Origin: a virus
Virus record (IMG/VR): IMGVR_UViG_3300017757_000174
Span: 1 to 22,888 of that record
Strand: one strand, 5' to 3'
DNA length: 22,888 nucleotides
A model generated the notes under the pieces. The model saw only the letters and a program-made list of their open reading frames with translations, had not been told where the DNA came from and made no database searches. Below, one piece after another: positions 2 to 17,317 of the stretch (its first letter is position 1; every line of letters begins with the position of its first letter). Position numbers and translations under genes: made by a program.

Positions 2-3000
2 GAAGTAGGGCAGCATTGGACACTTACTAATGGTTGGTCAGTAGATGACACTAAAGCAACTAATGATGGTACAGGTGGACAAATATACCCTACATCAAAT
101 AATTGGACAAGTGGTGCTACAATAAAATTTCAAATAACAGTATCAGATAGAACAACAGGGCATATAAGAATACAAAACCCTAGTTCAACAATTTATTATC
201 AAAACAATATTAATACAAATAATACTTTTGAATATAGCTTTACCACTATAGATGCTGATGGTTGGAGAATTGAAGCAGTAAGTGGTTTTGATGGTAGTAT
301 AGACAACATAGTAGTACAAGAACTAAAGCACGATGCTACAAACCTTATGCTTAATGCAGGTGCTTATCAGTCAGCTAATCCACTAATCACTTCTACTAAG
401 AGTATGGAGTTTGATGGTACAGATGATTACTTAGAAGTTGGAGATGTAGGAAGTGTAAAATCTATGTCTTTTTGGTTTAATCCTGATGAAAATATAACTG
501 CTTCAACTACACAACAAAGAATGTTTGGTTTTAATGGTAGTTCTTATAATGGTATTCATTTAGGTTCTGCTACAAGTTTACTTACAGGAGAAACTTTAAC
601 AGTTATGGAAAGTGGTGGTAGTTTTGGAAGAACTGCTACAACTAAAGAATTTGATGCAGGTAGATGGTATAATATAGTTATAGCTTGGAACGATACTGCT
701 ACATATTTTGATATATATGTAGATGGTGTATTAAGTACAGATTTAGTTAATAATACTTTTAATTTAGTAAATTGGACTGATTTTAAAATAGGAGTTGATA
801 ATACTTTAGCTGATGAATTTAATGGTAAAATAACAGAAGTAGGTAATTGGGATAGAACACTTACTGCATTAGAAGTAGCATCACTATACAATCAAGGTAT
901 GCCTACTAATCTACTTGTAAATAGAAACAACTATCAGTCAGGTAACCCTACAGTATTTAATACTAAGCAAGTTGATTTTGATGGTACTGATGACCATTTA
1001 AAAGTTACAAATGCTTATGGAAGTTTTACAGGTTCTTTTTCATTTTGGGTAAATAGAGATAGTAATACAGGAAATCATTATTTATATGATGCAAGAGGTA
1101 CAGGTAATACAGGTACAGGTTATGCTTATGTAAGTAATGGAACAGATAATATTTCAGTAAGTTCAGGAACAGTATATGTAGATGGAGTTGCTTCTACAGT
1201 AACAACATCAGATGGAAATTGGCATAATGTAGTAATTACAGGAATAACATTAAATGTAACAGAAGATATTAAATTTGGTAGTAGTGATGCAGTTACAAAT
1301 GAACTTAATGGTAAATTAAGCCAAGTAGGTTTATGGAACTCTACACTAACTGCTAATGAAGTATCTTCTTTATACAATCACGGATTACCTATTGACTTAA
1401 CGACAGACCAAGCAGCTTATGAATCTTCATCTAACTTAGTAGGTTATTGGAGAATGGGTAGTGGTACACTAGATTCTTATCCATTGATTGCAGACCAAAC
1501 AAATGCTACTTTAGGTAGTGAAGAAGTATCTTGTGGTAATTTTGAATGTGCTAATCCTGATGGTGTTTGGAATAGTAATGCAGGTGCAGGTTGGGGTATA
1601 AGTGGTGGAACAGCTACTTATGATGGTAGTGGGGGTACACAACCAATAACTCAAAATATAACAAATATACAATTAGGAAAATTGTGTAAATTAACTATTG
1701 ATGTTTTAGCAAATCAAGGTGGTGGGGCTAATACTATTTTTTTTGGTGGAACAGTTGTAAATAGCAGTCATTTAAATGTTGGTTCTTATACTTTTTATGG
1801 TTCTTTTAGTAGTAATACAAATCTTTACATATACGGAAGAAGTGGAGAAGTTTTTCAAATAGACAACGTATCAATAAAACAAGTAAATGGCAATCCTGCA
1901 ATAATGACAAACCAAACATCAAGTGATATTGAGAATGGTAGTCCTTATGCTCAATTAGTACAAGACAGTGATTTTACTCTAACAGGCACACAAGCAGAAA
2001 ACATAACAGGTGCATATTGGATAACAGGTGCAGGTTGGACTATTAGTGGTGGTAAAGCTACACTTGTAGCACAAGCAGGTAGTTCATCTTTAAGTTTTGC
2101 TCTTTTGTCAGTAACAGCAGGTAAAACACATAAAATTACTGTTAACGTATCTGCAACATCTTCAGGTTTTAGACTTTATGATTCTGCAGGTGTTGTTAGT
2201 TATGGATTACAACTTGGTGAAAATGTTTTTTATACAATACCATCTTCTTCTAGTTATCAAATAACTCCTTTAGGACTAGCAGGTGCATCAGGTTCAATAG
2301 ACAGCGTAACATTAGAAGAAGTAAACACAGGATTACAAGGATATTGGAAGATGGGAGATGGTACTAATGATGAGTACCCTGTTATCTATGACCAAACTAA
2401 TCCTACAATAAGTGCAGAACTTGTTACTAATGGAGATTTTTCTGATGGTACAACAGGTTGGACAACAGGTAATTCAGGTGTTTTAAGTATTGTTGATGGT
2501 GCTTTAGTTGTTACAGGAGATGGTGGTAGTTTTGCTTCTGCTAAACAAATAATAACAGGTATTGTTGGTAAAACTTATAAATTAACAGGAAAGGTAGCAG
2601 TAGTTTCAGGTTCTTATAATATAAGAGTAGAAACAGACCAACCATCTTGGTTAAATTTATTTACAACTTCAAGTACAGATTTTGTAAATTTTGAAGCATA
2701 TTTTGTTTGCGTAAACACAAGTATAGATTTAAGGTTTACTATTTATAATGTAGTAACCACATCATCAGATAAAATAAAAATAGATGATATATCACTTAAA
2801 GAATTAGGTGGCAATCCTGCAACTATGACAAATATGGTAGAGGGTAATATCACTAACCAATATCCACTAACAAAGATTAGAAACTACTATAGAATGGGAG
2901 ATGGTATATTAGATGGTTATCCTATCATACAAGACCAAACAAGTCCTAATCTTGCACATATACCTACTACTAATCTTTTTACTTACAGTGAAGATTTAAC

Positions 3001-4054
3001 ACAATTTAACTTATCTTCTTTTGGTACAGGTGCTTTAAATCCAACTGTAACATCTAATTATGGTATTAGTCCTGATGGAACTCAAAATGCGGATAGAGTA
3101 CAATTAAATGCAGGTACAGATAGTTCAGGAAATTCTAGGATTACACAATCTTTTACAATTTTTGGAACTCCTGATTTTGCAACAAGTGTGTATTTAAAAA
3201 GTAACGATGGTCAAGAACATACTATTGATATTATACAATCAAATCAACCACGAGATATTGTAACAGTAACAAATCAGTGGCAAAGGTTTAGTTTTACAAG
3301 ACCTAATGCTTCTCCTGATAAATATGGTATTGGTTTAACAGGTGATAATGGACAAACTGCTGATATACTTGCTTGGGGTTTGCAACTAGAAGAACAATCA
3401 CAAGCTACTGCATACATAAAGTCAGATGGTGTAGCAGCAGTAAGAAAATCATCTACTACTAACTTACTAGATTATAGTGAAGATTTTAGTCAAGCTATAT
3501 ATCTTAAAGCAAATGTTACATTAGAAAGTGGATTTGTTTCTCCATTTGGAAATTCTACTGCTAAAAAGTTAATTGAGGGTACAAATAATGGTTCTCATTT
3601 TATTTATGCAAATGTTTTTTTAAGTGGTTTAAGATTTTTTTCTGTTTACTTAAAAAAAGCAGAAAGAGATTATGCTTGGATTACAGATAGTCAAAATGGT
3701 AATGGAATAAATATAAATTTAACAAATGGAACTTTTACACCAATTAATAATCCTACAAATCCAAAAATAGAAAATGTCGGTAATGATTGGTATAGGTGTT
3801 CTTTTGGTTCAAATGTTTCTAGTGTTTGGCAATTAAGAATTGATACTGCAATAGATAGTGGTAGGGACTATCAAGGAGATGGAGTTAGTGGAATATATAT
3901 ATTTGGCGCACAGTTAGAAGAACAAACACAAGCAGAAACGTATGCTAAGACAACAGGATTACCTGTAACAATAGATTTATTTACAGAAAATAATTACGGA
4001 ACAATGACAAATATGAGTGCTTCTGATATAGTAGAAGATACTCCAAACAATTAA
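2..4054 (+). CDS. Giant modular tail adhesin (LamG and carbohydrate-binding-like modules), 5' end outside window
   Basis: The frame is open from base 2 with no stop, so the ATG at 347 is internal and the true start lies upstream; 1,350 codons are visible. It is probably a tail fibre or tail-tip adhesin that binds surface polysaccharide. Modules in order: the end of a carbohydrate-binding-like domain (2 to about 325); two LamG/concanavalin-like domains (404-900 and 971-1390) each opening with a FDGTDD strand; three jelly-roll-like modules (about 1527-1880, 1957-2325, 2412-2800) with motifs such as GWxISGG and a closing IDxVSxKxx strand; two phage-type modules beginning TNLxxYSED (2966-3430 and 3455-3957) and ending near QLEEQxQAxxY. 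A short scaffold (GYWRMG...DQT, then MTN...DI..P) recurs around these inserts and ends the protein. There is no visible enzyme motif. Domain calls are by eye; the adhesin role is inferred from module type and its place among tail genes. Confidence 0.85.
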   Translation, partial: EVGQHWTLTNGWSVDDTKATNDGTGGQIYPTSNNWTSGATIKFQITVSDRTTGHIRIQNPSSTIYYQNNINTNNTFEYSFTTIDADGWRIEAVSGFDGSIDNIVVQELKHDATNLMLNAGAYQSANPLITSTKSMEFDGTDDYLEVGDVGSVKSMSFWFNPDENITASTTQQRMFGFNGSSYNGIHLGSATSLLTGETLTVMESGGSFGRTATTKEFDAGRWYNIVIAWNDTATYFDIYVDGVLSTDLVNNTFNLVNWTDFKIGVDNTLADEFNGKITEVGNWDRTLTALEVASLYNQGMPTNLLVNRNNYQSGNPTVFNTKQVDFDGTDDHLKVTNAYGSFTGSFSFWVNRDSNTGNHYLYDARGTGNTGTGYAYVSNGTDNISVSSGTVYVDGVASTVTTSDGNWHNVVITGITLNVTEDIKFGSSDAVTNELNGKLSQVGLWNSTLTANEVSSLYNHGLPIDLTTDQAAYESSSNLVGYWRMGSGTLDSYPLIADQTNATLGSEEVSCGNFECANPDGVWNSNAGAGWGISGGTATYDGSGGTQPITQNITNIQLGKLCKLTIDVLANQGGGANTIFFGGTVVNSSHLNVGSYTFYGSFSSNTNLYIYGRSGEVFQIDNVSIKQVNGNPAIMTNQTSSDIENGSPYAQLVQDSDFTLTGTQAENITGAYWITGAGWTISGGKATLVAQAGSSSLSFALLSVTAGKTHKITVNVSATSSGFRLYDSAGVVSYGLQLGENVFYTIPSSSSYQITPLGLAGASGSIDSVTLEEVNTGLQGYWKMGDGTNDEYPVIYDQTNPTISAELVTNGDFSDGTTGWTTGNSGVLSIVDGALVVTGDGGSFASAKQIITGIVGKTYKLTGKVAVVSGSYNIRVETDQPSWLNLFTTSSTDFVNFEAYFVCVNTSIDLRFTIYNVVTTSSDKIKIDDISLKELGGNPATMTNMVEGNITNQYPLTKIRNYYRMGDGILDGYPIIQDQTSPNLAHIPTTNLFTYSEDLTQFNLSSFGTGALNPTVTSNYGISPDGTQNADRVQLNAGTDSSGNSRITQSFTIFGTPDFATSVYLKSNDGQEHTIDIIQSNQPRDIVTVTNQWQRFSFTRPNASPDKYGIGLTGDNGQTADILAWGLQLEEQSQATAYIKSDGVAAVRKSSTTNLLDYSEDFSQAIYLKANVTLESGFVSPFGNSTAKKLIEGTNNGSHFIYANVFLSGLRFFSVYLKKAERDYAWITDSQNGNGININLTNGTFTPINNPTNPKIENVGNDWYRCSFGSNVSSVWQLRIDTAIDSGRDYQGDGVSGIYIFGAQLEEQTQAETYAKTTGLPVTIDLFTENNYGTMTNMSASDIVEDTPNN
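350..1390 (+). repeat. Tandem linker-LamG repeat, two units
   Basis: Two diverged copies of a linker plus LamG unit lie in tandem inside the adhesin. Linkers read TNLMLNAGAYQSANP and TNLLVNRNNYQSGNP, followed by FDGTDDYLEV and FDGTDDHLKV. Both units end with a similar segment, LTALEVASLYNQG and LTANEVSSLYNHG. The pattern indicates in-frame duplication followed by divergence. Confidence 0.8.
1442..1945 (+). repeat. Split WRMG/MTN scaffold, copy 1, with an inserted carbohydrate-binding-like module
   Basis: Begins GYWRMGSGTLDSYPLIADQT and resumes after about 125 residues with NPAIMTNQTSSDIENGSP. The intervening segment is a jelly-roll-like module ending in IDNVSIKQV. Compare copies 2 and 3, split at the same place. 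Confidence 0.65.
2339..2866 (+). repeat. Split WRMG/MTN scaffold, copy 2, with an inserted carbohydrate-binding-like module
   Basis: Begins GYWKMGDGTNDEYPVIYDQT and resumes with NPATMTNMVEGNITNQYP. The insert of about 130 residues starts ELVTNGDFSDGTTGW, a typical opening for carbohydrate-binding-like modules, and ends IDDISLKEL. Confidence 0.65.
2882..4051 (+). repeat. Split WRMG/MTN scaffold, copy 3, with two YSED-type modules inserted
   Basis: Begins NYYRMGDGILDGYPIIQDQT and resumes only at the C-terminus as YGTMTNMSASDIVEDTP. About 345 residues lie between, made of two paralogous modules that start TNLFTYSEDL and TNLLDYSEDF. Confidence 0.65.
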
Positions 4055-5004: not shown

Positions 5005-5408
5005 TGTCAGACGAAGAAAGAAAAAAGTTACAAGAAAAAAACATTAATAAACTCAATCCATATAAGGAGAGAGTAAAGAAATATTTTCCTAATGGTGGGG
5101 AGATTTGTACTGAAGGTAGAAAAAAAGGAACAAAAATAGTTAGAAAAACTACGCAAATTAGCAGAAATGCCTTAACTTGGGCGTTAGAAGGACATTCAAC
5201 AAAAATTAGAATGGCATTAGATTCTTTATTTGCTGAAAATCCTGAAGCATATATTAACGCTGTATCTAAATTGCTTAATTACACAGTTCCAAAACTTTCT
5301 TCTTCAGAGATAAACGATAACACAACCAAGAAAGTCAAAATTGAACTTAATGATGATGTAAGCATTGAAGATTTAAGAGCAAAAATTGACGAAATTGACA
5401 ACAACTGA
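5004..5408 (+). CDS. Probable terminase small subunit
   Basis: A 134-residue protein whose ATG overlaps the previous stop by one base (TAATG). It is very basic in the first half (residues 1-55, KERVKK, EGRKKGTKIVRK), as expected of a DNA-binding region, and acidic at the C-terminus, where a small terminase would contact the large subunit. The middle block ENPEAYINAVSKLLNYTVPK resembles a segment I associate with small-terminase-like phage proteins. Its place directly before the large terminase, with a 23-base overlap, is the main support. Small terminases recognise the packaging site and regulate the motor. I see no clear helix-turn-helix, so this remains a context-based call. Confidence 0.6.
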   Translation: MSDEERKKLQEKNINKLNPYKERVKKYFPNGGEICTEGRKKGTKIVRKTTQISRNALTWALEGHSTKIRMALDSLFAENPEAYINAVSKLLNYTVPKLSSSEINDNTTKKVKIELNDDVSIEDLRAKIDEIDNN

Positions 5409-6840
5409 TAACGCACTTAAGTTTGCATTAGAAAAAAAGATTTGCGAACTTTCATTCTACGAATTTTTTAAACAAGCTTGGCACATTGTTGAACCTTCTA
5501 TTGAGCTATCTACTAATTGGCATCATAAATATCTGTGTGACTTATTACAAGAAGAAGCAGAAAGAATAATTGACAATAAACCAAAGACAAAGGACATTGT
5601 AATCAACATACCCTTTCGTTCTACCAAGTCACTTTTAGTTACTGTTATGTTTCCTGTATGGGCTTGGATAAAGAATCCTAAGTTTAGATTTATAACAGCA
5701 TCATATTCAGCAGAATTATCTATAGAACACGCTACAAGAAGTAGAGATGTAATAAATTCTGAGTGGTTTAAAGACAGGTGGTCAGATGTTTTTCATATAA
5801 AGAGAGACCAAAACTTAAAAGCAAGATACGAGAATAACTTTTTAGGAGTAAGAAGGGCGACATCAGTTGGGGGTACGGTAACAGGGCAGGGGGGAGATTT
5901 TTTATTGGTAGATGACCCTGTATCACCTCAACACGCTGCTTCAGAAGTAGAAAGAGAAAATGCTAACGAATGGTATAGAACAACATTCTATTCTCGTTTA
6001 AATAATCCATTAACAGGAGTAAGAATTGTTATTATGCAAAGAATACACGATAACGATTTAAGTGGTTTCTTGTTAAGTGGTGGCGAGAGTAGATTAAAAT
6101 ACAAACACATTTGTATACCTGCAGAATTATCTGATGATTTAAAACCTAAAATACTAAAAGACAACTATGATGAAGATGGTTTGTTTTGGACAGATAGATT
6201 TAGCAGAAGTATTTTAGATGATTATAAGCAGGCTTTAGGAAGCTATGGTTATGCAGGTCAGCTTATGCAGACGCCTACACCTCTTAATTCAGGTATGATA
6301 AGGTCAGATTGGTTTAAGATAGACCAATTTAAGCATACTACAGAGCATACAACAGTAGATTTTGTTATAGACCCTGCATATACAGCAAATGAGAAGAACG
6401 ACCCCTCAGCTATGCTAGCTTATACTTATAAAGACAATAAATGGCAAATAATAGATTGTATCAATGTATATAAAGAATTTCCTGATTTAGTTAAGTTTAT
6501 ACCTCAATGGGTAGCTAAAAATGGATATACTAACAGAAGTAGAGTATATGTAGAGCCTAAAGCGTCAGGAAAATCTATTGTGCAGACATTAAAAAAAGAA
6601 ACAGGCTTAAATGTTAGAGAAGATAAGCCGCCATCAAAAGATAAGGTAGCAAGAGTACAAGATATTAGTGCTTCTTTAGAAACAGGAAGGGTTAGTTTAT
6701 TAAAGGGAGATTGGAATGAAGAATTTTTACAACAGCTTGTTAAATTTCCATCAGCTAAACACGACGATATGGTTGATTGTTTGGTAATGGCAATCAATAA
6801 ACATATGTGGAATAACTCTAAAATATTATATTTTTCCTAA
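5386..6840 (+). CDS. terL: Terminase large subunit (packaging ATPase and nuclease)
   Basis: The motor that pumps and cuts phage DNA at the portal. The ATPase domain has a P-loop-like NIPFRSTKS (residues 74-82, R78, K81, S82), in which the usual Gly before Lys is Thr, and a Walker B DFLLVDDP (171-178, D176, D177). The RNase H-type nuclease domain shows DFVIDPAYT (D329), E390 in VYVEPKASGKS and the closing KHDDMVDC (D460, D461, D464). At 484 residues it is a normal length for the Terminase_6/6C type. The first in-frame ATG is at 5647, beyond conserved N-terminal sequence, and an in-frame stop ends at 5376, so translation must begin at a non-ATG codon: TTG at 5386 (or TTG at 5395). This overlaps the small terminase gene by 23 bases. 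Confidence 0.93.
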   Translation: MTKLTTTDNALKFALEKKICELSFYEFFKQAWHIVEPSIELSTNWHHKYLCDLLQEEAERIIDNKPKTKDIVINIPFRSTKSLLVTVMFPVWAWIKNPKFRFITASYSAELSIEHATRSRDVINSEWFKDRWSDVFHIKRDQNLKARYENNFLGVRRATSVGGTVTGQGGDFLLVDDPVSPQHAASEVERENANEWYRTTFYSRLNNPLTGVRIVIMQRIHDNDLSGFLLSGGESRLKYKHICIPAELSDDLKPKILKDNYDEDGLFWTDRFSRSILDDYKQALGSYGYAGQLMQTPTPLNSGMIRSDWFKIDQFKHTTEHTTVDFVIDPAYTANEKNDPSAMLAYTYKDNKWQIIDCINVYKEFPDLVKFIPQWVAKNGYTNRSRVYVEPKASGKSIVQTLKKETGLNVREDKPPSKDKVARVQDISASLETGRVSLLKGDWNEEFLQQLVKFPSAKHDDMVDCLVMAINKHMWNNSKILYFS

Positions 6841-6914: not shown

Positions 6915-7343
6915 ATGAAGTTGCAAAGTATAAATGAAGAACACGAAGTCTTAATAAGGCGTTATGTTAACTTTATTAAAGGTATAGCATACGAGGCTAC
7001 TGAACATTGTGAGTATGGTAAGTTTGATGACTATAATGATATTTTAAATAACATTATTAAATATACAAATGAGTTTCAAGAAATCATTGAATACAATAAT
7101 CAAACTAAAGAATGGGTATATATGTCGCCTAATCTAATGCTTTACTCTTGTATGGGTTTTTTGACAGGTATAAAGAACAAAGATAATTACGAAATTATTG
7201 ATTCTTTGTCAGAAATACTTTTTGAAAAGACAATAGATGTTGTAGAAAAAACCTCAACAATTATTGACAACTTAGAATACGAGCAATCTAAAAAAGAAAA
7301 AATAGAACTTATAAAAATAAAAAGAAATGAGCATAGTAATTAG
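6915..7343 (+). CDS. Hypothetical protein between terminase and tail-chaperone genes
   Basis: The frame can be read from TTG at 6894, but I prefer the ATG at 6915 (142 residues) because AAGGA sits just before it and the hairpin at 6887-6908 would otherwise be coding. I do not recognise the family. It appears mostly helical and mildly charged, with no signal peptide. A short semi-hydrophobic stretch (MSPNLMLYSCMGFLTG, around residues 74-89) is too polar for a confident membrane segment. The C-terminal 30 residues are lysine-rich. The gene ends 17 bases inside the next gene, so the two are probably co-translated. By position it is a tail or packaging accessory protein, but this is inference. 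Confidence 0.65.
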   Translation: MKLQSINEEHEVLIRRYVNFIKGIAYEATEHCEYGKFDDYNDILNNIIKYTNEFQEIIEYNNQTKEWVYMSPNLMLYSCMGFLTGIKNKDNYEIIDSLSEILFEKTIDVVEKTSTIIDNLEYEQSKKEKIELIKIKRNEHSN

Positions 7344-8028
7344 TCTAAAGCAAGGTGATGAGCAAAGAGATGTTACAATCCCTACAGAATGGAAGGATAT
7401 GACATTAGAATATTGGTGTGGTATGACAACAATAATTAAATCACATTTTGATAGAGCTAAATTAAGAAGAAACTCTCAAAATGAAAAGCAAGAAGAAATA
7501 GACCATACTGTAGAGTATTTAGAATTTGTAGATAATCAATTAGAGGATTTTCAGAATATACAAATGAATAGAGATTTGTTTGGCTATATGACAGGCTTAG
7601 ACAAAGAATCTATGAAGCTAATAGACATAAATAGCGTAAACAAAGTAATTAGCGTTTTAGATGGTCTTGTAGAGGAATACAAGCCAAAAGGTATGCGTTC
7701 TTTTGAATGTGAAGGAGAAACATACTTTTTCCCATCAGAATTTCTAAGACAAAATACTTATGGCGATTATATAGAGGCTACACAACTTGAAATGTATATA
7801 GAATCAATGAAGCACGGTAAGTTTGATGTATTGCCTGAGCAGATGGCTATATTATGCAGAAAATTAGAAGAAGAATATGATGATGATGTTATTCCTCAAA
7901 AAACAGAAATGTTTAAGAAGTTAACAATGGACGTCGTTTGGGAGTTCGGTTTTTTTTTGACTCAGCAAAACATAAAATTAGCGAAACTTTCAAATATGTA
8001 TTCGGCGAAAAAAGAGCTAGCGAAATGA
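7327..8028 (+). CDS. Putative tail assembly chaperone, gpG-like
   Basis: A 233-residue protein beginning with an IPTEWKDMTLEYW block. Openings of the form PxxWxxxTL are common, as I recall, in tail-chaperone-type proteins of Bacteroidota phages. It overlaps the previous gene by 17 bases. Near its 3' end (7950-7958) is a run of nine T, read as GGT TTT TTT TTG. A slip back by one base there joins codon 210 to the next frame, giving a fusion of about 311 residues with the gpT-like region that follows. Without slippage the protein ends LAKLSNMYSAKKELAK. Chaperones of this type coat the tape-measure protein during tail assembly. Here, unusually, other tail genes lie between it and the tape-measure gene. 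The function rests on the overlapping-pair architecture and weak motif memory. Confidence 0.6.
   Translation: MSIVISLKQGDEQRDVTIPTEWKDMTLEYWCGMTTIIKSHFDRAKLRRNSQNEKQEEIDHTVEYLEFVDNQLEDFQNIQMNRDLFGYMTGLDKESMKLIDINSVNKVISVLDGLVEEYKPKGMRSFECEGETYFFPSEFLRQNTYGDYIEATQLEMYIESMKHGKFDVLPEQMAILCRKLEEEYDDDVIPQKTEMFKKLTMDVVWEFGFFLTQQNIKLAKLSNMYSAKKELAK
7950..7958 (+). promoter_or_regulatory. Candidate -1 ribosomal frameshift slippery site (T9)
   Basis: Nine consecutive T. In the upstream frame the codons are GGT TTT TTT TTG, so tRNA-Phe can re-pair perfectly after a -1 slip and continue TTT GAC TCA. The -1 frame is open from 7917 to the stop at 8259-8261, across and well past the end of the upstream gene (8028). 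A GGGAG lies at 7940-7944, just upstream, but its spacing is short for a known stimulator. I found no convincing stem-loop downstream. The same run could also permit transcriptional slippage. Confidence 0.6.
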
Positions 8029-8261
8029 TAGTAAAGACTAAAAGCCTATATGATGTATATGTAAAGCCATTTGGTTGGCTTAACAGCCTTTATATGCTTG
8101 CTGAGAAGGGTATATTTAAAACAGAAGGTATGAACGGTATAGATAGTGTTAAGAATACTAACCTATATAAAGTTTTAAGTTACTTAAGTTGGATAACAGC
8201 TACAAACGAATACGAATCTAAGGTACAAGAAAAAATACACAATCCAAATAAAATAACTTAA
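8025..8261 (+). CDS. gpT-like tail chaperone region, expressed by frameshift or from its own ATG
   Basis: From the ATG at 8025, which overlaps the previous stop as ATGA, this encodes 78 residues. The same frame is open back to 7917, so a -1 slip at 7950-7958 would instead give a fused gpG-gpT protein. The central sequence FGWLNSLYMLAEKGIF followed by LYKVLSYLSWITATNEYES fits the pattern I associate with gpT-like domains (a GWxxxLYxLA opening, then a helix ending in a short charged tail). The fused form would bridge the tape measure and tube subunits. If the ATG is used instead, a short separate protein is made. I favour the frameshift but cannot exclude coupling. The stop overlaps the next ATG by one base. 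Confidence 0.6.
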   Translation: MIVKTKSLYDVYVKPFGWLNSLYMLAEKGIFKTEGMNGIDSVKNTNLYKVLSYLSWITATNEYESKVQEKIHNPNKIT

Positions 8262-9402: not shown

Positions 9403-11127
9403 ATGGCAGGATTTAATGGTACAATAGCGGCAGGAATACAGCCTTTTGACAACTCTAGTTCTAATTTAGGAACAATGAGTTATAATTGGAGGGCAAATTA
9501 TGTAAAAAGTGCGCATACACAAATGAGATACCAAGTTATTTGGGACGGTTTAAATGAAAATCAAGAACCTCTTGCTAGTAATTTTTCTACACCTGATGGT
9601 GATATAATAAATATAATTTTTAGAGTATATGCAAGCACTCAATTTCCTTATCCTGTGACCTCTGAAGATTGGGATTTAGTAGGTACAATAAGAAAAACTA
9701 GGGATATAGCAAATAGAAGCTATGTAAATGGTCAAGCAAATCTAAGCGGACAAAGATTTACTATTGAAATTAGTCAATTATGTCAAGATTTATTATCATA
9801 TAGCTTAGTCCCTATTAACAAGGGTACTTGGCAAAACTCTGAGTGGGGTGGTATGAATGGAGGAGAAACAAAACAAGATAATGTTACACAAGGCATAAGT
9901 TTTTATAATGTAACTCCAAATGGAACATATAGACATATTTGGGTAACTGCTACTCCTGAAGTATTATTGGCTAATGGTACTGTTGAAGAAGCAACAGGTG
10001 CAGGTGCAAGCTTGTCTTTTAATAAAATAGCTGTTATAAACTCTGTAGCACAATTTGAAAAAGATGCAATTTATTATAACCTAAAATATATAATACAAAA
10101 ATCTTTAGCTAATACAAACAACCCTAGGGGTTTTATGAGTTTATGTCCTAACTACACTCAAACAACTAATGCTCCATTTTTAAAACAAGTTAGAGAAGAT
10201 GAAGAAGCAGAGTGGTTATATTGGTGGCAAAGAAATATGGGTAATGCGGGTGACCAAACAGAAAAAGCAAGATTAAAAGTAGAAACATATTTAAGTAATG
10301 GCTCTGCTCAAAACACAATGTATTTAACTGATTTTAATTCTAATTTAGACACAGAAGTACAAGGAACAACAGTTTTTAAATTAAATCAAAATAGAGTATG
10401 CGTGCAAAATGTTTCGCCTACTTACATAAATGCTAATGCTGTAGATAACTCAGGAAGTACAATTACAAATCAAATAGATAGCTCTACATCATATTACAAA
10501 ATACATTTAGAATATACAAGTCAAACAAGCGCTGTTATTAGAGCAACAGAATATAGATATTTTGGTATAGATAGAGAAACTGCTAACATACCTTATGGCT
10601 TTGTAAGATTTCATTGGTTAAATAGAATAGGTGGTATAGATAGCTATACAGCTAAAAGAGATGTTATTGAAGGACTGTCTGTAAGCAGAGATACAATAGA
10701 AACAAAATCTGCTGATAGAACTTGGTATCAAGATAATCAAACTAACATACCTTCAGCAGGAACTAATTTAGCAGACGCTGCTTATGTTTCTAATACTATG
10801 CGAGGTGGTAATTTATATAAAGGAGGTAGAGAGGTTTTAAATGTAAAAGCACAAAGAAACAATAGTGTATTTACAGAGCCTTTAAACAAACAAACTGCAG
10901 AATGGTTAGAAGAAATAATGACTTCTCCAAATGTGTGGATAGAGATGGGCACAGAGGCTACTGCAAGAGGTAATACTGTAAACCCATATCAAAGACCATC
11001 TACAAAAGAATACATACCTGTTATAATAACAAATAGTGAGGTTGAGACTTTAAATCAAGAGGCAGGTTTAGTTAAGTTTAATATTGAATATACTTTAGCT
11101 CATAAAGTACAAACACAAAGAAATTAA
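9403..11127 (+). CDS. Large tail/baseplate structural protein
   Basis: A 574-residue protein starting two bases after the previous stop, with an ATTAATT leader. It is rich in Asn, Thr, Tyr and beta-strand-like segments and has no enzyme motif or signal peptide. Distinctive blocks are VRFHWLNRIGGIDSYTAKRD (about residues 398-417) and, near the end, WLEEIMTSPNVWIE followed by EYIPVIITNSEVETLN. I recall WLNRxGGxDSYT-like blocks in conserved structural proteins of Bacteroidota phages whose exact position in the virion I cannot name. Its location between the terminator-like and hub-like genes suggests a tail-tip, distal-tail or baseplate role. It overlaps the next gene by one base. Confidence 0.65.
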   Translation: MAGFNGTIAAGIQPFDNSSSNLGTMSYNWRANYVKSAHTQMRYQVIWDGLNENQEPLASNFSTPDGDIINIIFRVYASTQFPYPVTSEDWDLVGTIRKTRDIANRSYVNGQANLSGQRFTIEISQLCQDLLSYSLVPINKGTWQNSEWGGMNGGETKQDNVTQGISFYNVTPNGTYRHIWVTATPEVLLANGTVEEATGAGASLSFNKIAVINSVAQFEKDAIYYNLKYIIQKSLANTNNPRGFMSLCPNYTQTTNAPFLKQVREDEEAEWLYWWQRNMGNAGDQTEKARLKVETYLSNGSAQNTMYLTDFNSNLDTEVQGTTVFKLNQNRVCVQNVSPTYINANAVDNSGSTITNQIDSSTSYYKIHLEYTSQTSAVIRATEYRYFGIDRETANIPYGFVRFHWLNRIGGIDSYTAKRDVIEGLSVSRDTIETKSADRTWYQDNQTNIPSAGTNLADAAYVSNTMRGGNLYKGGREVLNVKAQRNNSVFTEPLNKQTAEWLEEIMTSPNVWIEMGTEATARGNTVNPYQRPSTKEYIPVIITNSEVETLNQEAGLVKFNIEYTLAHKVQTQRN

Positions 11128-14476: not shown

Positions 14477-17317
14477 ATGGCATTAAACAAGAAAGTAGCA
14501 ATAGAGGTAGAAATCAAAAACATTAAAAAAGTTGCTGATTTAAAAGAAGAATTAAAAAAATTAAGAAAAGAACAGATAGAAGCCGAAAAGTATGCTAAAA
14601 CAGGAATGTTTACCTCTAAAAAACAAGAGGAACAATATATAAAAAATTCTAGGGCAATAAAAGATAAGTCTACTCAATTAAGAAACTTAAATAAAAATTT
14701 AAAAGAGTCTACCACCAATACTACTAAGTCTACTAAGGCTACTAATGGTATGGCTAAACAAATTATAAAAGGCGCTGCAGCTATTGGAGTGATTGTAACT
14801 GCATTTAGAACTATAAACAGAGCTGTATCTGCTGTTGTAACTACTTTTACTGAGTTTGAATTTGTAATGGCTAAAGTAAATGCTATTTCAGGAGCTACTG
14901 AAAAAGAATTTATTGCATTAAACGATTCTGCTAAAGAGCTTGGTAGAACAACTTTTTTTACTGCAGAACAAGTTGGTCAATTACAATTAAATTTTTCTAA
15001 GCTAGGTTTTAGTGCAGACGAAATAATGAACGCACAAGAAGCTACTCTTGCATTAGCTACTGCAACAGGTAGTGATTTGGCTAGAAGCGCTACTGTAGCT
15101 GCTTCTGCTGTAAGAGGTTTTGGATTAGACGCTAGTGAAACACAAAGAGTTGTAGATGTTATGGCTGTGTCTTTTGCAACATCAGCACTTGATATAGAGA
15201 AATTTCAAACTGCTATGACCAAAGTTGCTCCTATTGCTAAAGCCGCAGGTTTTTCTATAGAAGATACTACGGCTATTATGGCAAAATTATCTGATGCAGG
15301 TATCGAGGCTTCTATTGCAGGTACGTCATTAAGAAATATATTCTTAAAAATGCAAGACCCTGCTTCTGATTTAAGTCAAGCCTTTGGAACTACAATACAT
15401 TCATTGGACGAGTTAATACCTGCTATGAGAGAATTTGTTGCTCAAGGTGGTGATATGGCTGAGATTATGGGGGTTGTTGATTTAAGGCAGGCTGCAGCAT
15501 TTGAGCTTATGTTGGCTAGTGCAGATGTTTTAACAAACTATAGAAATAAACTTGCAGATTCTACAGGAGAAGCCAAAAGAATGGCTGATATGATTGGTAA
15601 AACTTTACAAGGTTCATTTTTAAAATTAAAATCAGCGTTAGAAGGTGTGTCTATTGCTGTAATGGAACAATTTGCAGAAGGCTTAAAATCTGCTACAAAA
15701 ACCCTAACTACTTTTGCTACTTGGCTTTCAAAAAATAGCACAATAATTACTACTCTAATAAAAGGTTTAAGCTTCTTGGCTAAAACTATTGTTGTTATGT
15801 ATACTGCTCAAAAAATAGCTAATGCAGCCGCTATTGCAGGAAGAATTGCATTGGCTGCTTATTCAATAGCTACAGGTACAGCAAGTATGGCAACAAAAAG
15901 ATTTATAGTTAGTTTAAAAGTTTTAAGAGGCGCTCTAATAAGGACAGGGCTTGGCGCTCTTGTTGTTGTTCTTGGCGAGATTCTTTATGGTTTATTAGCT
16001 GTAAATGACGAAACAGACAAATATGTAGAAAAGCAGAAAAAACTACAAAAAGAAGCACAATCTTTTATAACTCTACAAGAAACAGAAATAGCTTATACTA
16101 AAGAACAATCAGATTTAAATATAAAATTATTTAAAGAGGAAAAGAAAAGAAGGGAAGATAGGCTTGAATTGCTAAGAAAAGAAATACAGTTTCTTACTGA
16201 CCCTGCAGCTATTGAAGAAATGCAAGATAGAATTGATGTAGACAAGGAGGCTATTAAAGTAATGGAAACCAAAATCAAACACGAAGAAGATTTTGAAAAA
16301 AGAAGGAGAGAAACTAGGGCAAGAGAAGCGGCTCTGCAAAGTGATTTGTTATATCAGTTAGAACAAGAATTAAAATTAATAAAAGAAACTCCTGCAGCCA
16401 CAGAACAAGAAGTTATGGCTAGAAATAAAAACATAGAAGCTATAGAAAAAGAAATAAAAAGGCTTAGTGAATTAGGAATAGAAAAAAAGAAAGAAGTAGA
16501 GAACAATGCTATTTTCTATCAAGATTTATACACAAGTTCTGTAGACCAATTAGATTTATTAAAGGCTGAAGATGAAAAATATTTTGCAGCACAAGAAGCA
16601 AAAGGTAAGCAGAGACTAGAAATGTTTAAAACATTTTCAGATAGTATTTTTACAATTATTGGTAATAATGCACAAAGAAGGGCAGATTCAGAGGCTAAAA
16701 TATTAGAAGAAAGAAAAGAAGCAGGCGTAATAACTGAAGAACAATATGAAAAACAATTAGAACAAGTACAAAAAAAAGCTTTTGAAAGAAAGAAAAAATT
16801 AGATATTGCAGAAGCAATTATTAATGGAGCCTTAGCTATGACAAAAGTAACGGCACAAACAGGGGTTTTAGCTTTTGCTTTCTCACCTTTTATTGCCGCT
16901 ATGACTGCCGCACAGATTGCAGTAATTGCATCACAAAAATTTGCAGACGGTGGCTTAATAGAAAAGTTTGCTGATGGAGGTATGGTAGTTGGTAAGTCAC
17001 ACGCACAAGGTGGAGAGAAGTTTGCTGTAGGCGGTAGGGTGGCAGAGCTTGAAGGTGGTGAGGCTGTTATAAATAAGCGTAGTACAGCTATGTTTAAAGG
17101 ACAGCTATCGGCTATGAACGCAGCAGGTGGTGGTGTTAAATTTGCAGATGGTGGCTTAATGAATATGCCTTCTTTTGCTAGCTCACAATTTAATGCAATA
17201 GGTCAACAAAATATGATGGGAGCAATGAATACAAGTAGTAGAGTAGTAGTGGTTGAGGCTGATATAACAAATAGCCAAAATACCGTAGGTTTAATAGAGG
17301 CGGAAGCCACATTTTAA
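14477..17317 (+). CDS. Phage tail tape-measure protein
   Basis: A 946-residue protein that sets tail length and is ejected with the DNA. Residues 1-80 form a charged coiled coil, 97-123 a hydrophobic stretch, and about 123-400 the TP901-type tail-length core (FEFVMAKVNAISGAT, TTFFTAEQVGQLQ, FGLDASETQRVVDVMA, AGTSLRNIFLKMQDP). Residues 425-508 carry several hydrophobic helices that could cross a membrane, followed by long coiled coils (about 515-680 and 735-775). Near the C-terminus FADGG appears three times (822-826, 831-835, 889-893), with SHAQGGEKF and ELEGGEAVINKRST, a Gly-rich end I recall from many tape measures. By the usual rule of about 1.5 angstroms per residue, a tail near 140 nm would be expected. 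The chaperone pair is not adjacent but over 6 kb upstream. Confidence 0.93.
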   Translation: MALNKKVAIEVEIKNIKKVADLKEELKKLRKEQIEAEKYAKTGMFTSKKQEEQYIKNSRAIKDKSTQLRNLNKNLKESTTNTTKSTKATNGMAKQIIKGAAAIGVIVTAFRTINRAVSAVVTTFTEFEFVMAKVNAISGATEKEFIALNDSAKELGRTTFFTAEQVGQLQLNFSKLGFSADEIMNAQEATLALATATGSDLARSATVAASAVRGFGLDASETQRVVDVMAVSFATSALDIEKFQTAMTKVAPIAKAAGFSIEDTTAIMAKLSDAGIEASIAGTSLRNIFLKMQDPASDLSQAFGTTIHSLDELIPAMREFVAQGGDMAEIMGVVDLRQAAAFELMLASADVLTNYRNKLADSTGEAKRMADMIGKTLQGSFLKLKSALEGVSIAVMEQFAEGLKSATKTLTTFATWLSKNSTIITTLIKGLSFLAKTIVVMYTAQKIANAAAIAGRIALAAYSIATGTASMATKRFIVSLKVLRGALIRTGLGALVVVLGEILYGLLAVNDETDKYVEKQKKLQKEAQSFITLQETEIAYTKEQSDLNIKLFKEEKKRREDRLELLRKEIQFLTDPAAIEEMQDRIDVDKEAIKVMETKIKHEEDFEKRRRETRAREAALQSDLLYQLEQELKLIKETPAATEQEVMARNKNIEAIEKEIKRLSELGIEKKKEVENNAIFYQDLYTSSVDQLDLLKAEDEKYFAAQEAKGKQRLEMFKTFSDSIFTIIGNNAQRRADSEAKILEERKEAGVITEEQYEKQLEQVQKKAFERKKKLDIAEAIINGALAMTKVTAQTGVLAFAFSPFIAAMTAAQIAVIASQKFADGGLIEKFADGGMVVGKSHAQGGEKFAVGGRVAELEGGEAVINKRSTAMFKGQLSAMNAAGGGVKFADGGLMNMPSFASSQFNAIGQQNMMGAMNTSSRVVVVEADITNSQNTVGLIEAEATF

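Follow-up and report, generated by a model that had tools for sequence, protein, structure and literature searches.

A gene in the window, the 22,888-nucleotide stretch of viral DNA analyzed here (positions 1 to 22,888 of IMG/VR record IMGVR_UViG_3300017757_000174), would give rise to two tail assembly chaperones in unequal amounts by slippage at a run of nine T residues. Most of the product would terminate in the 0 frame as a G-like protein of 233 amino acids, and a fraction would gain a T-like domain encoded in the -1 frame (311 amino acids, G-T-like) via an extra nucleotide or a one-base slip at the run. The slip is tentatively attributed to RNA polymerase, a mechanism given a probability of roughly 0.55. 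The enzyme would add one U (U10) when its RNA-DNA hybrid of about 9 bp sits wholly in the run; a share of the mRNAs would then carry the fused frame, and ordinary translation would yield G-T. The programmed -1 fusion itself almost certainly exists.

The nine-T run and the overlapping frames

The 0-frame gene, a candidate for a gpG-like tail assembly chaperone, spans positions 7,327–8,028 (+ strand, as are the other parts of this locus, the terminase gene and the tape measure gene). The letters were read as GG at 7,948–7,949, the slippage tract of nine T's (T9) at 7,950–7,958 and G at 7,959, with GGT TTT TTT TTG as the codons of the gene at 7,948–7,959. The -1 frame is open from 7,917 to its stop at 8,259–8,261, and the T-like domain that a slip would reach (FFF-DSAKHKIS...GWLNSLYMLAEKGIF...YLSW) occupies positions 7,959–8,258. 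The predicted peptides that distinguish the two products are LTMDVVWEFGFFFDSAK for the fusion and LTMDVVWEFGFFLTQQNIK for the unshifted protein. The earlier note had described this T run, this open frame and products of 311 and 233 residues, all of which were correct on re-reading. The arrangement is that of lambda-type G/GT genes, with two overlapping ORFs, the second of them in the -1 frame, and a fusion sharing the N-terminus of the shorter protein. Additionally, an ATG at 8,025 overlaps the 0-frame stop codon (TGA, 8,026–8,028) and opens a possible separate short ORF of 78 amino acids (8,025–8,261). At the composition of the window (32% GC), about 0.6 runs of at least nine T's are expected by chance. 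Hence, a lone T9 is unremarkable, and the conservation of the run is the part that is not due to chance.

Conservation of the run in the family of the window

Relatives were collected by searching viral contigs at the protein level, with both the upstream and the downstream protein as queries, giving 280 loci including the window. These were collapsed to 157 distinct sequences (family A), and a tree was made from 151 sequences. The run was T9 in 150 of the 157 and T10 in the other 7, never shorter, and its 3′ end and reading phase were constant. The context GAGTTC-NN-T9-(G/A)A was found in nearly all sequences, although the identity of the fusion proteins to that of the window was as low as 32%. 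The earlier note had named two observations that would speak against its prediction, an interrupted T run in relatives and stops in the -1 frame between the run and position 8,025. Neither was encountered when the relatives were aligned: the slip site was conserved as an uninterrupted T9 or T10 in 157/157, the -1 frame was open past the run in all, and no relative had a stop from the run to the conserved core.

Furthermore, zero parsimony changes were counted at all nine T's in the tree of 151 sequences, which has a total length of 28 substitutions per site. The invariant positions include the 0-frame wobble positions 7,950, 7,953 and 7,956, while third positions upstream of the run changed 22.3 times on average in the same tree and conserved Phe codons elsewhere in the gene showed 4 to 23 switches between TTT and TTC. 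Judged from these sequences, the conservation of T9/T10 cannot be attributed to chance.

A second family and single-frame homologues

Sequence searches with the window proteins found no relatives in cultured phages, nor any in the bacterial genomes searched. When a structural model of the 0-frame protein was compared with a library of viral structures, it matched proteins of uncultured phages and gp38 of Nonlabens phage P12024S. In this phage, an ORF of 175 amino acids containing a T9 at 23,578–23,586 of its record directly follows the terminase gene and is accompanied by a -1 ORF of 86 amino acids, annotated in the record solely from a late ATG. This annotated product, gp39 (23,570–23,830 of P12024S), begins at an internal ATG, and the comparative data indicate that gp39 is the -1 extension of gp38.

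Among the relatives of P12024S (family B), T9 was present in 36/37 distinct contexts and T10 in the remaining one. A second scan, whose query was confined to -1 domain sequence some distance past the run and was hence not biased toward any slip sequence, recovered T9 in 77/78 distinct sequences. In the one T-domain relative without it (L396, near 1,400–1,500), G-like sequence appears to enter the T domain and the junction is missing. T9 also occurs in the cultured isolates P12024S and P12024L.

The fusion profiles of the two families align across the junction (hhalign, E 1e-17), by which family B is judged to be remotely homologous to family A. The run is read as xxT TTT TTT TTR (1+3+3+2) in family A and as xTT TTT TTT TRN (2+3+3+1) in family B. 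Relative to the codons, the family B run is thus displaced by one base in the 5′ direction: loss of a T at its 3′ end has been offset by gain of one at its 5′ end, leaving nine in all. Scans asking only for six or more T's next to the flanking motif returned, among genuine members, at least 93 T9 in family A and at least 108 T9 plus at least two T10 in family B, with no genuine T7 or T8 in either family among the matches listed. A single T6 match and T6/T7 matches were discarded as unrelated sequence, with stops or no domain.

In the Duneviridae, the homologous protein is encoded by one ORF of 293–301 amino acids (Flavobacterium phages FPSV-F7 and laban6-1, Cellulophaga phage Ingeline_1). It belongs to phrog_25418, a family of unknown function, and its homology was detected by hhalign (probability 95.6, E 1e-8). 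The existence of this uninterrupted ORF shows the fused form to be a real protein shape. Flavobacterium phage 6H was considered as a case of a different frameshift and rejected: its N375_gp10 stops early (10,352–10,361), with the C-terminal half in another frame, and its FPSV relatives, 99% identical, have one intact ORF. In 6H, the gene is probably either broken or affected by a sequencing indel.

Selection in the -1 frame

Upstream of the run, 2012, 1210 and 4556 changes were counted at codon positions 1, 2 and 3, and in the 17 codons after it the counts were 93, 203 and 169. The variable site thus shifts from the 0-frame wobble position to that of the -1 frame exactly at the run (chi-square 246, on parsimony counts that are not fully independent), a pattern indicating that the -1 frame is under selection immediately 3′ of the run. 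Together with the natural single-frame fusion, it supports the proposal of the earlier note that the T run drives a -1 shift joining the two frames.

Slippage by the ribosome or by RNA polymerase

Slippage by the ribosome and slippage by RNA polymerase would yield an identical fused protein. Programmed ribosomal -1 frameshifting, in which tRNAs would slip on T_TTT_TTT and/or T_TTT_TTR, helped in family A by a GGAG on the 5′ side, is a serious though less probable explanation. A 0-frame heptamer of the X_XXY_YYZ type, T_TTT_TTT, occurs in both families regardless of phase, and T_TTT_TTR in family A, where the T9 of the window amounts to two tandem heptamers (T_TTT_TTT and T_TTT_TTG). The experimentally studied tail chaperone frameshifts considered here, those of lambda and P2, are ribosomal, and the P2 E/E′ shift takes place on TTTTTTG, a heptamer contained in the run of the window (PMC3091744). 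The GGAG, which includes the G of a Trp codon and resembles a Shine-Dalgarno sequence, is found in 132/151 sequences of family A, and its synonymous G is conserved. In Bacteroidia, elongating ribosomes appear to make use of Shine-Dalgarno-like pairing at prfB (PMC8710568), and the GGAG could, from its sequence, act as a stimulator of this kind.

Nevertheless, seven T's would suffice for a ribosomal slip, and genuine runs of seven or eight were absent from the matches listed for both families. Family B offers one heptamer only, its listed contexts have no GGAG adjoining the run, and in E. coli U_UUU_UUU is reported to shift far less readily than A_AAA_AAG (PMC5009743). No downstream RNA structure that might stimulate ribosomes was detected in either family, in windows of 60 nt that began between 9 and 40 nt past the first T (mean z -0.63 to +0.15). 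Conservation of the TTC codon 5′ of the run is likewise not accounted for by Shine-Dalgarno pairing.

RNA polymerase slippage was preferred over a ribosomal shift, as we infer from the run length, the two phases and the lack of downstream structure. Nine is about the length of the RNA-DNA hybrid in RNA polymerase, and transcriptional slippage explains a homopolymer fixed at nine. In family A, no single overlapping heptamer accounts for the first T, a 0-frame wobble position, together with the ninth, a -1 wobble position; each of the two had 0 changes in the 151 sequences. The homopolymer has the length, about eight or nine or more, and the conserved size of a programmed transcriptional realignment site, and its length was kept across the only two phases sampled; a heptamer is also present in both. 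The change of phase was not taken as proof against the ribosome, since any T9 includes T_TTT_TTT however it is phased. The loss of one T would lead to an immediate stop in family A, since GA or AA comes directly after the run in all sequences (151/151), and in most of family B a stop would follow no more than four codons later. In Shigella mxiE, two frames are joined by slippage at a run of U, and in Thermus dnaX slippage operates at A9 (PMC1088944); programmed transcriptional realignment is usually recognized by a homopolymer of eight or more (PMC3711429).

Other points also count against polymerase slippage. Residue constraints in the two frames could help to fix the flanking T's, and the synonymous conservation of GAG TTC in family A is not predicted by slippage of the polymerase. 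This GAGTTC (7,942–7,947 in the window) stands out by its synonymous sites, Glu being encoded by GAG in 140 sequences and by GAA in 5, and TTC being present in 150/151. The same sites are kept even where the preceding GG is lost, and no role was found for them. As for the lambda-like G/GT logic claimed in the earlier note, the coding arrangement stands; the run, in contrast, exceeds what a ribosomal heptamer needs, and slippage of the polymerase is at least as likely. The broader scenario, in which polymerase stuttering at a T tract of hybrid length sets the chaperone ratio in a large group of Bacteroidota phages in place of the ribosomal frameshift of lambda, and the single-frame homologue of the Duneviridae represents the frameshift-free state, was held to have an even chance of being correct.

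The ATG at 8,025 and the integrity of the run

Two separate genes, with the downstream ORF translated from ATG 8,025 by coupled initiation and no frameshift, are a very improbable alternative. The ATGA at 8,025–8,028 would permit such coupling in the window, and an ATG is found at the same place (codon 24/25) in 23/151 relatives. However, ATG, GTG and TTG are all absent between the run and the conserved GW core in 58/151, and no start is conserved family-wide. The -1 frame is selected directly after the run, Flavobacterium and Cellulophaga phages carry a one-frame fusion, and two genes would leave the fixed T9 unaccounted for; the sequences of the family already contradict this reading. Several clades have the -1 frame closed immediately 5′ of the run. 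In general, only the shift gives access to the -1 domain.

A separate gene at ATG 8,025 would hence be a trait of the window's own subclade and not of the whole family. The suggestion that one locus makes three products was retained to this extent: a third product is possible in that subclade, with the ATG itself as its sole support, and does not extend to the family in general.

A homopolymer sequencing or assembly error inside one long gene is the least probable reading of all: homopolymers are error-prone and the cultured flavophage homologue is a single ORF, but the relatives already refute an error, with an identical run length across hundreds of independently assembled sequences as well as the isolates P12024S and P12024L, fixed synonymous sites, and a 0-frame tail of 21 to 45 codons overlapping the -1 frame.

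Putative function of the two proteins

The pair likely works like lambda G/GT, with a G/GT-like function in tail assembly, because of its coding logic, the tape measure gene downstream and a weak top match to the HK97 chaperone. This tape measure gene (14,477–17,317) was identified by phrog_1533 (E 2e-52) and PF10145 (E 2e-33). The model of the 0-frame protein, of moderate confidence (pLDDT 70), had the HK97 tail assembly chaperone 2ob9 as its top PDB row, a weak match (VIA-align Z 5.2 over 80 residues, rmsd 4.5; next row 4.2), and a Foldseek search of the PDB with this model gave nothing significant. The fold match is too weak to settle membership; we propose that the pair works like G/GT, not that it is a member. 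The AlphaFold2 (AF2) model of the -1 T-like domain is helical and returned chance rows only from the PDB. The chaperone candidates matched no PHROG or Pfam family, and the annotated small genes of the region provided no useful family names. The tail chaperone role of the proteins is, as we infer from the above, a putative one.

Comparison with known systems

A frameshifted chaperone is in itself already known; what is new is a homopolymer kept at nine residues in two remote families and likely to act at transcription. As in lambda G/GT (lambda, HK97 and many dsDNA phages), a short protein and a -1 extended version share their N-terminus, no start codon is conserved for the -1 domain even though the window's subclade has ATG 8,025, and the 0-frame model weakly resembles HK97 gp13 (2ob9). 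The pair differs from lambda in its nine-T tract, in the lack of a sequence match to any known chaperone family, and in the tape measure gene, which lies about 6.2 kb downstream with several genes between and not next to the pair, the typical though not strictly defining position. With P2 E/E+E′ (TTTTTTG) it shares a T-rich slip site, the -1 direction and no reported downstream structure, while the P2 site is a heptamer and the runs of families A and B stay at nine in either of two reading phases.

Programmed transcriptional realignment (mxiE, the A9 of dnaX, some IS transposases) likewise combines a homopolymer of nine, two overlapping frames and a maintained run length; mxiE and dnaX are known cases, and realignment at the T9 of families A and B is a predicted one. 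Homology to the Duneviridae protein extends through the G part and the greater part of the T domain, but this protein involves no frame change and is one product of 293–301 amino acids. In the literature searched, no case of programmed transcriptional realignment in a phage tail gene was found, nor any description of a homopolymer kept at nine residues in two distantly related families.

Among phage tails, transcriptional slippage would, if true, be unusual. With a run of nine in two phases, hundreds of genomes form a natural experiment on whether the ratio of structural proteins in a phage can be set at transcription and not at translation, and the cultured P12024S makes the mechanism directly testable. 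The analysis also offers a corrected gene model and a function for the unknown families phrog_32199, phrog_38404 and phrog_25418, and for the window's own family, which has no PHROG.

Genome context and hosts

The chaperone candidate closely follows the gene for the large terminase subunit (5,386–6,840; phrog_38, E 7e-95), as in P12024S. The cultured members infect Nonlabens, Flavobacterium and Cellulophaga, and the nearest terminases from isolates include those of Croceibacter phages; the hosts are therefore probably Bacteroidota. Between 5,386 and 22,494 the modules run in the order terminase, chaperone pair, tape measure, head protease and portal, unlike in lambda. Laminin_G_3 domains (PF13385, E 1e-17) are present in the protein encoded at 347–4,054. 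The protein encoded at 8,261–9,400 matches the virion structural family phrog_10356 in its C-terminal half.
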